Shown here piece by piece: positions 2,978 through 8,024 of a stretch of 48,929 bases of DNA. The notes beneath the pieces were generated by a model. The model was not told the origin of the DNA, did not search any database, and saw only the letters and a list, made by a program, of their open reading frames with translations. Source of the DNA: Thermotogota bacterium. GTDB taxonomy: Bacteria > Thermotogota > Thermotogae > Thermotogales > Fervidobacteriaceae. Each line of letters begins with the position of its first letter. Positions within the stretch are counted from its first letter, which is position 1. Both the position numbers and the translations under genes were made by a program. Location: the NCBI GenBank assembly GCA_030550315.1, contig JAUQPP010000007.1, positions 1 to 48,929 on the forward strand, written 5' to 3'.

Positions 2978-3061
2978 TTTCGGAAAGTAGAGTTCTTGCA
3001 AGGCGTGGATCCCCCAGTTAATTTGCTTTATTTCTCCTTCCCTTAACAGGAGGTGATGTGT

Positions 3062-3589
3062 GTGAAGGCACTTATGATTATTGATCTTCAGAACGACTTT
3101 GCCAAACCGGGTGGAGCGTTGTATTTCAACGGCGCTGAACGCGTTATTGAACCTATTTTGGAGCTTGTGAAAAAATTCAAGGATGAAGGATTGCCAATAA
3201 TTTACACAAGAGATTACCACCAAGAAAACGACTACGAGTTCAAAATTTGGGGGACACACTGTGTTGGTGGTACGTACGGTAGCGAGATCGTTGACGAGCT
3301 CAAGGAAGCGTTGAATGGATACAAAAAGGTGTACGAAATCAAAAAGACGCGTTATTCAGCATTTTACGGAACGAACTTAGAAGAAGTTCTGAGAGAGCTT
3401 GGAGTTACCGAGGTACATGTGAGTGGATTGGTGACGCATATATGTGTGCTTTTCACGGTCGAGGAGCTCAGGAATCGGGGAATTGAAACAGTTGTGCACG
3501 TAAAGGCGGTGGACAGTTTTGATAAGTCGATGCACGAGTTTGCTCTTAAGGAGATGAAGGATGTTTTACTTGCAAAGCTTGAGGAGTGA
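3062..3589 (+). CDS. pncA: Nicotinamidase (isochorismatase-family cysteine hydrolase)
   Basis: The 175-residue cysteine hydrolase is predicted to deamidate nicotinamide to nicotinate in the NAD salvage pathway. The catalytic triad is visible: Asp8 in IIDLQNDF, Lys94/95 in EIKKTRYSAF and Cys128 in VTHICV. The metal site typical of true nicotinamidases is present as D51-x-H53 (RDYH) and H66 (WGTHC), which separates it from isochorismatases. The ORF track starts at GTG 3053, but the sequence AGGAGGTGAT at 3048-3057 is itself the Shine-Dalgarno, so the real start is GTG 3062. It follows the BMP gene by 84 bp and is closed by a strong terminator. Confidence 0.88.
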   Translation: MKALMIIDLQNDFAKPGGALYFNGAERVIEPILELVKKFKDEGLPIIYTRDYHQENDYEFKIWGTHCVGGTYGSEIVDELKEALNGYKKVYEIKKTRYSAFYGTNLEEVLRELGVTEVHVSGLVTHICVLFTVEELRNRGIETVVHVKAVDSFDKSMHEFALKEMKDVLLAKLEE

Positions 3590-5109: not shown

Positions 5110-5149
5110 AGAAGTCAAAGGACAGGTGCAGGAGGGAACGCGTAAGGTA

Positions 5150-6193
5150 ATGACCGGAAATGATCGTACTAACGTTTCGAGTTTACTCGAGCCCTTGGTG
5201 TCGGTCATACTTCCGACCTATAATGAGGCTCAAACGGTGGAAAAGAGCCTCGTTAGTCTTTTGGATGGTGGTTATCGTAATATCGAAGTGTTGGTTGTGG
5301 ACGGCGGAAGTGTCGACGGTACACTCGATTTGGTTCGATCGATAGCGTCACGTTATCCGGGTAAGGTTTTAATCTTGCACAACGAAAAGAGATACACACC
5401 GCATGCGCTCAACATCGGAATAAGGAAAGCAAAAGGGAGCTATATAATGATCGCGAGCGCGCACGCAGTTTTCTCGAAAAACTACCTTGAAGCATGTGTA
5501 AAGGTGTTGGAAGAAGGAAAAGCGGATGTAACTGGAGGAGTCTTGGAAGTACGTGCAAGGAGCGAGAGCAAAAAGGCGAAGGCAATTGCTTCCGTTTTGT
5601 CACATCCTTTTGGTGTTGGTGGTGCACGCTACAGACTGGGTACTGAGACTGAGATGTACGTAGATACCGTAGCCTACGGTGTTTACAGGAAGGAGATCTT
5701 CGAACACGTGGGACTCTTTGATGAAAGGTTTATAAGAAATCAGGATTTAGAGTTCAACCTCAGGCTCAAAAGAGCAGGGTACCGCACGATGCTAGTCCCC
5801 CACACAAAAGCATACTATTTGGCACGGGATTCATACTCCGCATTGTGGAAGAACAACTTCGAGAACGGCAGATGGGTAACAAAAGGTGCAAAGTACACCA
5901 AAAATTCATTTTCATTCAGACATTTAGTGCCCCTTTTCTTCGTTCTTTATCTTACTATTTTCGGTGGATTCGCGCTCTTAACAACAAAAACCATATCTCA
6001 TCTTTTTCTTCTATCGCTTCCAGCTCTTCTGTACCTTTCTTTGGCTTTATACTTTGCCACGGTGCTTTCGCTTCAAAATCGTAAAATCACTCTTATACCG
6101 TACGTTCTCACTGCATTTGTCGTGCTGCACATTTCGTACGGTATTGGCTCGTTGTTTGGGTTGATGGAACATGCGGTTAGGATGGCATTTTAG
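5150..6193 (+). CDS. Family 2 glycosyltransferase with C-terminal membrane helices
   Basis: Residues about 20-240 form a GT-A catalytic domain with the GT2 hallmarks VSVILPTYNEA, VVDGGSVDGT and ADVTGGV. The acceptor-loop block NQDLEFNLRLKRAGYR resembles the ED motif of ExoA-like transferases. The last 100 residues hold about three hydrophobic segments (PLFFVLYLTIFGGFALL and following), so the enzyme should sit on the inner face of the membrane and make a surface polysaccharide or glycolipid. The start is uncertain: the ORF track begins at GTG 5126, inside the region preceding AGGAGGG (5130-5136). ATG 5150 is the first good codon after that site, although the spacing is long. It converges on the radical SAM gene, sharing four bases at the stop codons, so there is no room for a terminator. 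Confidence 0.85.
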   Translation: MTGNDRTNVSSLLEPLVSVILPTYNEAQTVEKSLVSLLDGGYRNIEVLVVDGGSVDGTLDLVRSIASRYPGKVLILHNEKRYTPHALNIGIRKAKGSYIMIASAHAVFSKNYLEACVKVLEEGKADVTGGVLEVRARSESKKAKAIASVLSHPFGVGGARYRLGTETEMYVDTVAYGVYRKEIFEHVGLFDERFIRNQDLEFNLRLKRAGYRTMLVPHTKAYYLARDSYSALWKNNFENGRWVTKGAKYTKNSFSFRHLVPLFFVLYLTIFGGFALLTTKTISHLFLLSLPALLYLSLALYFATVLSLQNRKITLIPYVLTAFVVLHISYGIGSLFGLMEHAVRMAF

Positions 6194-7134
6194 TTTTCAC
6201 GAACAAGGTCGTAACCTTCGCTTATTTTAAACTGACTTTTCAAGTGTCTCTGGATGTACTGACCGCAGTTGCTTCCTATTTTGTTTTCTTCGAGCTCTCC
6301 AACACTGATGATAACTTCAAAACCGGCATCTTTTAGTTCTTGAACAAAGCGCGCGTGCTTTACAAGTGAACCATCGCCAAGTACGTCCGATTTCAAACCG
6401 TTTTCCAAAGCCTTATAGGTAGGGTTGACCGGTGTTATTTTCACTAGAAATTTGTCCGGTGAGAAGTATTTTTTAATCACGCCCGCGTTCACTATATTTT
6501 CACTTGCAAGGGCGAAGTTGAGGGTAATTTTGCGGTCACCCTCTTTGACAAATTTTTCTCCATATCGGGCAATTTCTTCGAAGTTCCATTTCTTTACAGG
6601 AATTATCTCGTCGCGTTGTAATTCGTCGGTGCTGTGAATTGAAAATTGCATCTGAAACCTGCCTCTGTAGTGTTTTTCCTTTATTTCAAAGAGCCTTTCG
6701 AACCATTCGGTGCGCCCGAACGGTGCAACGGTGCTTATAGATGGAAGTAATCCTGGTGCATCGAGAACGGTGGGAAGTTCTTCAAGTACGTCAAGTACCG
6801 CATCGTTCAACGCAGGTTCGCCGACCCGTGCAAACTGGATTTTGAATTTCTCAACTGGGACATGGCGGTCGAAACGTTGGTTAACCAGAAAGAGTATTTG
6901 CTCCAATATTTCCTCCTTTGCTAATTTTCGTTTGTAATACCCTCCAGCGTCGCACATTTTACAGCCGACCGGGCATCCGTCCATTGTGGAGACGATGAGT
7001 ACCCATTTTTTTTTCCTTGGAACTGGGGGCTGGACAGACTCGACAAATTCAACGAGTGCCCCACGACTTGTTTTCCCAAGATAAACGTACGCAACTTGTT
7101 CCTTGCCATATTTTGCGATTACTTCCATTTTCAC
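6190..7134 (-). CDS. Radical SAM protein of the RlmN/Cfr-like group, lacking the resolving cysteine
   Basis: The 314-residue protein has the RlmN/Cfr-type CxxxCxxC cluster motif (GCPVGCKMC: C54, C58, C61) for a [4Fe-4S]/SAM centre. Its C-terminal NCGQ (C290) matches the cysteine that is methylated in RlmN and Cfr. The second RlmN cysteine (C118 in E. coli), seven residues before the cluster motif, is replaced here by Ile47. The N-terminal helix-hairpin domain of RlmN is reduced to about 40 residues. It is therefore probably not the housekeeping 23S rRNA A2503 methylase; substrate and chemistry are unknown. The GTG start overlaps the stop of the upstream flavoprotein gene (GTGA), with GGAGGT five bases upstream, so the two are translationally coupled. 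Confidence 0.8.
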   Translation of the reverse strand: MKMEVIAKYGKEQVAYVYLGKTSRGALVEFVESVQPPVPRKKKWVLIVSTMDGCPVGCKMCDAGGYYKRKLAKEEILEQILFLVNQRFDRHVPVEKFKIQFARVGEPALNDAVLDVLEELPTVLDAPGLLPSISTVAPFGRTEWFERLFEIKEKHYRGRFQMQFSIHSTDELQRDEIIPVKKWNFEEIARYGEKFVKEGDRKITLNFALASENIVNAGVIKKYFSPDKFLVKITPVNPTYKALENGLKSDVLGDGSLVKHARFVQELKDAGFEVIISVGELEENKIGSNCGQYIQRHLKSQFKISEGYDLVREN

Positions 7135-7973
7135 TCAGCACCTCCAAGTAATTCTATTATCATCATTGCGGCCTTTATGCCTTCACCTATTGCAATACTC
7201 ATTTGTCTGTAATGCACGTGCGCTGCATCACCTATGATGAGTACTTTGTCGAAGTTTTCCACGTTCATCTTTGGTAAATTCTCAACTCTGCCGATTGCGA
7301 TAAGTAGAGCGTCGAATTCTTGCTGTTCTCCTTGCGAAGTAACTATTACCAAACGCTCACCATGACTTCTAACTTCCCGGATGGGTGTTTTATGATGTAT
7401 TGGAATTTTTCTATTCCTTGCTTCTTCAACCAGCTTTAATAATGCACGAGGTCGCTCACCGCGGATAAAAATTTCCGGCTTAATGCCATTTTCAAAGGCC
7501 TTTAGCGCTCCATCGAAGGCGATATCCCCACCACCGTATACGGCTAAGTTCGATATTCCTCTAGGCAACTTTACGTACTCGTATGAAACTCGTTCCGAGA
7601 TTTCAAACTCTGGAATTCGCTTAGGTTTTGTCCCTGTGGCAATGACCAAGAAGTCGTAGGGGTATTCACCTTTGATACCAAATAATCTCCCATCCTCAAC
7701 TGAGAGTATCTCGTCCTTTACGATTTCAAGCCCGTTAATGTCAATCAGTCTTTTGAACTCCGCAACAATTTCCGCTCCGGATCTTGCAGGCATGAGGGGG
7801 ATGTTCTCCACCCTCCAAGCATTACGAATAAGCCCACCTATTTCCTCTTTTTCGAATATTCTAGCAGATATACCGTACCTCTTCAACATCAATGCACACG
7901 AAAGTCCAGCCGGCCCGCCACCAACGATGCAAATATGTTTTTGAGGTCTCAAAAAACGCTCACTCCCAAACAA
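7131..7973 (-). CDS. Thioredoxin-reductase-like FAD/NAD(P)H oxidoreductase without redox CxxC
   Basis: About 280 residues with an FAD Rossmann motif near the N-terminus (CIVGGGPAGLSCALML), an ATG block (LVIATGTKPKR), a second nucleotide-binding GxGxxG-like motif (AVYGGGDIAFDGA) and the C-terminal FAD-binding block IIGDAAH. The architecture is that of thioredoxin-reductase-like flavoproteins. No CxxC lies between the two halves, so it cannot pass electrons through a disulfide as thioredoxin reductase does. Coupling by a 4-bp overlap to the radical SAM gene suggests that it supplies electrons for that enzyme; this is inference. The start is either TTG 7973 or TTG 7952. The second has GGGAGTGAG upstream; the first has only a weak site. 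Confidence 0.8.
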   Translation of the reverse strand: MFGSERFLRPQKHICIVGGGPAGLSCALMLKRYGISARIFEKEEIGGLIRNAWRVENIPLMPARSGAEIVAEFKRLIDINGLEIVKDEILSVEDGRLFGIKGEYPYDFLVIATGTKPKRIPEFEISERVSYEYVKLPRGISNLAVYGGGDIAFDGALKAFENGIKPEIFIRGERPRALLKLVEEARNRKIPIHHKTPIREVRSHGERLVIVTSQGEQQEFDALLIAIGRVENLPKMNVENFDKVLIIGDAAHVHYRQMSIAIGEGIKAAMMIIELLGGAE

Positions 7974-8018
7974 TTTTTCTTCAAATCGCGACTATCGTGT
8001 TTTACCTTCCACACAGAA

Positions 8019-8024
8019 ATTATA
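8019..8024 (-). promoter_or_regulatory. Extended -10 promoter of the flavoprotein / radical SAM unit
   Basis: On the minus strand TGGTATAAT is a perfect extended -10. A poor -35 (TACCTT) lies 17 bp upstream. It points away from the MarR promoter and its upstream part overlaps that promoter's -35 region. Confidence 0.6.

Follow-up and report, generated by a model that had tools for sequence, protein, structure and literature searches.

A radical SAM (rSAM) protein related to RlmN and Cfr, a thioredoxin reductase (TrxR)-like flavoprotein and an isochorismatase-fold cysteine hydrolase form a three-gene module that is kept or lost together in bacteria and archaea. The rSAM protein retains the carrier cysteine of RlmN and Cfr as its only cysteine beyond the cluster ligands, and its active site, as judged from conserved residues, has been rebuilt and has not decayed. 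With C118 of RlmN lost and the active site altered in this way, the enzyme probably catalyses an as yet undescribed reaction on a substrate that is not the RNA target of RlmN. No description of this three-gene set was found in the databases or literature searched.

Two adjoining genes in a Thermotogota contig

The window, the whole 48,929-nucleotide stretch of Thermotogota DNA that was analysed, contains two genes of the module in one operon:

6190–7134, minus strand: rSAM protein of 314 residues, from an RlmN/Cfr-related family without a name of its own
7131–7973, minus strand: TrxR-like FAD/NAD(P)H oxidoreductase of 280 residues without a redox CxxC, the upstream gene of the same operon

The rSAM protein contains the [4Fe-4S] cluster ligands C54, C58 and C61 in a CxxxCxxC motif, together with a methyl-carrier-type cysteine, C290, in the sequence SNCGQ. 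A sequence-only reading of this DNA had pointed to these motifs and to an isoleucine at the C118 position, and alignment with 30 RlmN/Cfr sequences confirmed that Ile47 occupies the C118 column. The same reading gave the rSAM and flavoprotein genes a 4-bp overlap, which requires the rSAM gene to start at GTG 7134. The near-invariant start of the family aligns instead with the ATG at 7128 (Met3 of the window protein), and on the sequences ATG is the more likely start, in which case the rSAM gene would begin just past the flavoprotein stop.

The flavoprotein had been described as a TrxR-like FAD protein without CxxC, and this description also held: the motif is absent from the window protein, and no conserved cysteine is present among 86 homologues. 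The open reading frame ends at 7973, not 8024. The protein has a two-domain fold, FAD- and NAD(P)-binding, and its model (pLDDT 95.6) matches TrxR structures in the PDB with TM scores of up to 0.82. This fold is shared with thioredoxin reductases and TrxR-like ferredoxin-NADP reductases, but the family stands apart from ordinary thioredoxin reductases as a separate, high-scoring class, and within Thermotogae it is restricted to genomes with the module.

The rSAM family is distinct from RlmN and Cfr

Homologues of the rSAM protein (45–87% identity) were found in Thermotogae genomes and at 77 loci of GTDB genomes, spanning Thermotogota, Chloroflexota, Zixibacteria, Cloacimonadota, Bacteroidota, Ignavibacteria, Elusimicrobia, Acidobacteriota, Spirochaetes, Planctomycetes, Melainabacteria, Methanomicrobia and Thermoplasmata. 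The gene is rare in Bacteroidota (7/397 genomes). Among 97 sequences exactly four cysteines are invariant, namely the three ligands of the cluster and C290, which aligns with the methyl-carrier C355 of RlmN and is present in 97/97 homologues. The C118 column is occupied by Ile, Thr or Leu in 37/37 family sequences, compared to Cys in 30/30 RlmN/Cfr sequences (C105 in Cfr), and no compensating conserved cysteine was found beyond the four in the 97 homologues. Since it holds across the family, the combination of C54, C58, C61 and C290 with Ile47 in the window protein is not due to chance.

In the phylogenetic tree the family forms one clade with a support of 100, separated from all sampled RlmN/Cfr sequences by more than 6 changes per site. 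The window protein scores 55.6 bits against the RlmN model TIGR00048 (cut-off 290) and 45–48 bits against the Cfr models (cut-offs 530–550), and has no match to the LipS model. The sequence-only reading had taken the protein not to be RlmN and had raised the question of a separate rlmN; the tree and the lack of a compensating cysteine bear out the former, and a complete RlmN, with equivalents of both C118 and C355, is indeed encoded separately in the same assembly. RlmN and Cfr are the nearest solved structures to the predicted structure of the window protein (pLDDT 94.2). However, only 51–53 residues precede the first cluster cysteine in the family, compared to 114–124 in RlmN/Cfr, and by this comparison the N-terminal RNA-recognition domain is missing. 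The median pI is 7.5 for the family and 9.1 for RlmN.

Conserved residues of the rSAM active site

Besides the fold and the CxxxCxxC motif, the family shares with RlmN/Cfr E105, GEP, N312, S233 and the carrier cysteine in its CGQ context; the motif around C290 is I-G-S-N-C-G-Q, with Q kept in 34/37 sequences. Other conserved positions differ. M176 of RlmN, to which stabilisation of the C355 radical is ascribed (PMC9692996), gives way to Ala102 in 37/37 family sequences. N307 and R344 of RlmN, which are universally conserved, contact ribose/phosphate and are equivalent to N288 and R327 of Cfr, are replaced by Lys232 and Gly279 in 37/37; the Cfr residues hold A2503 (PMC13001441). G177 is replaced by Arg103 and S211 by A137, each invariant or nearly so, and the position of Cfr Ser153 is taken by Gln100.

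Barrel positions K96, K98, Q100, R103, Q161, Q163, K232 and T234 are invariant in the family. Strand alternation in the predicted structure suggests that K96, K98, Q100, Q161, Q163, K232 and T234 point into the barrel. From these invariant polar and charged positions we infer that the enzyme probably acts on a small polar metabolite carrying negative charge.

A cysteine hydrolase is the third member of the module

Clustering of neighbouring genes yielded only one other gene with wide conservation, which encodes an isochorismatase-fold cysteine hydrolase and is present at 59 loci. Across phyla the three genes usually share an operon. The usual operon order is hydrolase, flavoprotein, rSAM, with the hydrolase gene directly upstream of the flavoprotein gene, and short gaps or overlaps separate 70/88 flavoprotein–rSAM pairs and 50/58 hydrolase–flavoprotein pairs. 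In the window genome the hydrolase gene is on a different contig:

5146–5766 of locus L117 (contig C30 of the window genome, G000): module hydrolase

The triad Asp35, Lys113 and Cys146 is invariant in 44 sequences, and among solved structures EntB-type isochorismatases and cysteine hydrolases are the closest relatives. The module hydrolase shares its fold and triad residues with EntB, RutB and biuret hydrolase, but scores under every NCBIfam cut-off and has invariant residues of its own, Trp88-Trp89. The window itself carries an isochorismatase-family gene (3053–3589, plus strand), which is nicotinamidase/biuret-hydrolase-like and widespread in Thermotogae with or without the module; being a different paralogue that also occurs in module-less genomes, it was rejected as the third partner. 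A possible lead to the module hydrolase is an earlier link between an isochorismatase-like gene and an uncharacterised selenium trait based on SelD (PMC9312934).

Co-occurrence of the three genes

Profile scores in Thermotogae are bimodal, with intact rSAM copies at 452 bits or above, hydrolases at ≥195 versus ≤122 bits and flavoproteins at ≥248 versus ≤195 bits. The rSAM gene is present in 44 of 104 Thermotogae genomes, all 44 of which contain both the flavoprotein and the hydrolase. In the 60 genomes without it, the flavoprotein is absent (0/60) and the hydrolase occurs once (1/60, G057). Fisher's test of the co-occurrence gives p < 1e-28 (with shared ancestry left uncorrected), and it is this joint presence and absence that identifies the three genes as a module. 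In a 145-genome sample of the class containing Melainabacteria, one genome has the rSAM gene, and only that genome has the hydrolase.

A Thermotoga-type genome (G021) with a decayed rSAM gene, of which only fragments are left (C82:3819–4599, L123), has neither partner. In another genome (G028:C1; L125, L126), counted among the 44, the rSAM gene has been broken into two pieces, which lie 76 kb from each other and both adjoin a copy of the same 429-aa open reading frame, probably a mobile element. The two genomes are examples of natural loss.

The flavoprotein gene adjoins the rSAM gene in nearly every homologue whose contig reaches far enough, in keeping with the proposal of the sequence-only reading that the two are coupled. 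Its two-gene system with different chemistry was thus supported as regards flavoprotein coupling and non-RlmN chemistry, but the system has three genes, not two. The hydrolase was found elsewhere in the genome in 19/22 genomes chosen for lacking a nearby copy. In Fervidobacterium-like genomes the hydrolase gene has moved away; the window genome and other Thermotogae keep it unlinked, and in the window lineage the flavoprotein gene stays with rSAM. In Melainabacteria-type genomes hydrolase and flavoprotein genes are together, away from rSAM. What the co-occurrence establishes is that the three genes share a process; it does not establish electron transfer.

Two Bacteroidota genomes (G541, L212:6630–9280; G577, L213:4791–7459) encode a divergent rSAM family member with all four cysteines. 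Here the rSAM gene directly follows a gene for an AMP-forming acyl-CoA ligase and is adjoined by 4-hydroxyphenylpyruvate dioxygenase (HPPD)- and homogentisate dioxygenase (HGD)-type genes; the hydrolase is absent genome-wide, and the flavoprotein is absent from the rSAM locus. The rSAM protein has been re-partnered in these two lineages, where it perhaps acts on a related carboxylate substrate.

Other neighbouring genes and rejected roles

MarR and ABC exporter genes lie next to the pair in no genus but that of the window, and the suggestion that this unit links the system to a toxic compound was therefore abandoned. A LipS2-type lipoyl synthase gene lies directly upstream of the module hydrolase gene in several Thermosipho-type genomes (L137, L138, L140–L144, L032). 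This adjacency is incidental, since LipS2 is also found in module-less genomes, and a role in lipoate synthesis was rejected because LipS2 is near-universal in Thermotogae independently of the module. In six Thermotoga-type loci (L018, L019, L022, L121, L153, L156) a metallo-beta-lactamase-fold gene separates the flavoprotein and rSAM genes and the hydrolase gene has a flagellin-like gene upstream of it, and in Chloroflexota (L048, L049, L053, L059) a dihydropteroate-synthase-like (DHPS-like) gene is immediately upstream of the hydrolase gene. The flagellin-like, metallo-beta-lactamase, DHPS-like and MscL neighbours were discarded as partners, each being confined to single lineages.

A peptide substrate was rejected as no conserved small open reading frame occurs near the module, and a role in defence as there was no credible PADLOC match. 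No riboswitch or other Rfam regulatory element was found near the module in 28 loci, the single match being a tRNA. The 16S cytidine modification N330 of T. maritima was rejected as the product because its reported range takes in archaea as well as many bacteria (PMC2584109), which does not fit a rare and patchy module.

Proposed function and alternatives

In RlmN and Cfr, the second cysteine takes the adduct proton, upon which the C–S bond breaks and a thiyl radical is left; the reducing source is unsettled (PMC9692996), and the cluster has been favoured for this role (PMC13001441). RlmN without C118 is frozen as a covalent adduct (PMC9692996, PMC13001441), consistent with the claim of the sequence-only reading that loss of C118 should block A2503 methylation. 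Where the carrier cysteine alone is kept, the proton might be found otherwise, the adduct might be broken reductively, or the cysteine might act as a hydrogen-atom donor.

We hypothesize, with slightly better than even confidence, that the module consists of a hydrolase and an NAD(P)H flavoprotein that feeds an rSAM enzyme, and that the rSAM enzyme acts on a small polar metabolite by means of its only carrier cysteine. The flavoprotein would transfer electrons from NAD(P)H to the rSAM cluster, directly or via ferredoxin or flavodoxin, and may also reduce the thiyl radical that catalysis leaves on the cysteine. The rSAM enzyme would make a 5'-dA radical and employ C290, which most likely carries an S-methyl group and attacks the substrate as a CH2 radical, while the job of C118 would fall to a base other than cysteine or to an extra electron. 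The hydrolase would cleave an amide, urea or vinyl-ether bond, present in either the precursor or the product, and act before or after the rSAM enzyme; the implied presence of such a bond favours a small-molecule pathway. A more specific version, in which the module carries out one-cysteine class A radical methylation of a small metabolite, with the flavoprotein as NAD(P)H-dependent donor and the hydrolase completing a short pathway common to bacteria and archaea, is offered tentatively.

A dedicated NAD(P)H flavoprotein without a disulfide of its own is a plausible electron source for both cluster and thiyl, by analogy to LipT, an FAD/NAD(P)H protein whose gene travels with those of LipS1 and LipS2 and which is their proposed electron donor (PMC10332631). 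LipS1/LipS2 belong to another rSAM family, and LipS2 is encoded elsewhere in the window genome. Alternatively, the flavoprotein could reduce or oxidise a metabolite intermediate and not serve the rSAM enzyme at all, a possibility to which we give less than an even chance. Its association with the hydrolase in Melainabacteria-type genomes is what would be expected of consecutive metabolic steps, and the rSAM–ligase loci have no flavoprotein nearby; however, the flavoprotein stays with rSAM in the window lineage while the hydrolase moves away, and the precedent of the similar LipT favours a donor.

Spore photoproduct lyase and rSAM epimerases use a cysteine as thiol hydrogen-atom donor. If C290 were to act likewise, the rSAM enzyme would abstract a hydrogen from the substrate, C290 would quench the product radical, and the flavoprotein would re-reduce the cluster and the thiyl. 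A resolving cysteine would then be unneeded, as one cysteine beyond the cluster suffices for such enzymes, and both the joint loss of C118 and M176 and the dedicated reductase would be accounted for. We nevertheless regard this as rather unlikely, as retention of the CGQ context, E105, GEP and N312 hints that an S-methylation step has been retained.

The module is very probably not an RNA methylase system. Modification of a different base in rRNA or tRNA, with the other two enzymes as accessories in a multi-step process, would fit the closest relatives of the rSAM enzyme, which act on RNA, and the conservation of E105 and N312. It is made improbable by the missing N-terminal domain, with 53 residues ahead of the cluster compared to 117–124, a pI below that of RlmN of the same class, the changes at the ribose/phosphate contacts N307 and R344, the patchy distribution of the module, which is absent from close relatives, and a hydrolase partner unusual for base modification. 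It is scarcely credible that the protein is a degenerate RlmN paralogue which binds or traps RNA but does not turn over, as the adduct frozen by C118 loss in RlmN might suggest (PMC9692996, PMC13001441), since the many residues invariant across bacteria and archaea, the intact cluster motif and the strict co-occurrence with two enzymes show that the enzyme is active and under constraint.

RlmN and Cfr are the defining enzymes of class A radical methylation, for which the two-cysteine mechanism is well established and the final electron source unsettled. A widespread sister family with the carrier cysteine only and a reductase of its own would be a natural test of the role of the second cysteine. 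The module would also define an uncharacterised three-enzyme pathway, found mostly in uncultured phyla but also in the tractable Thermotoga.
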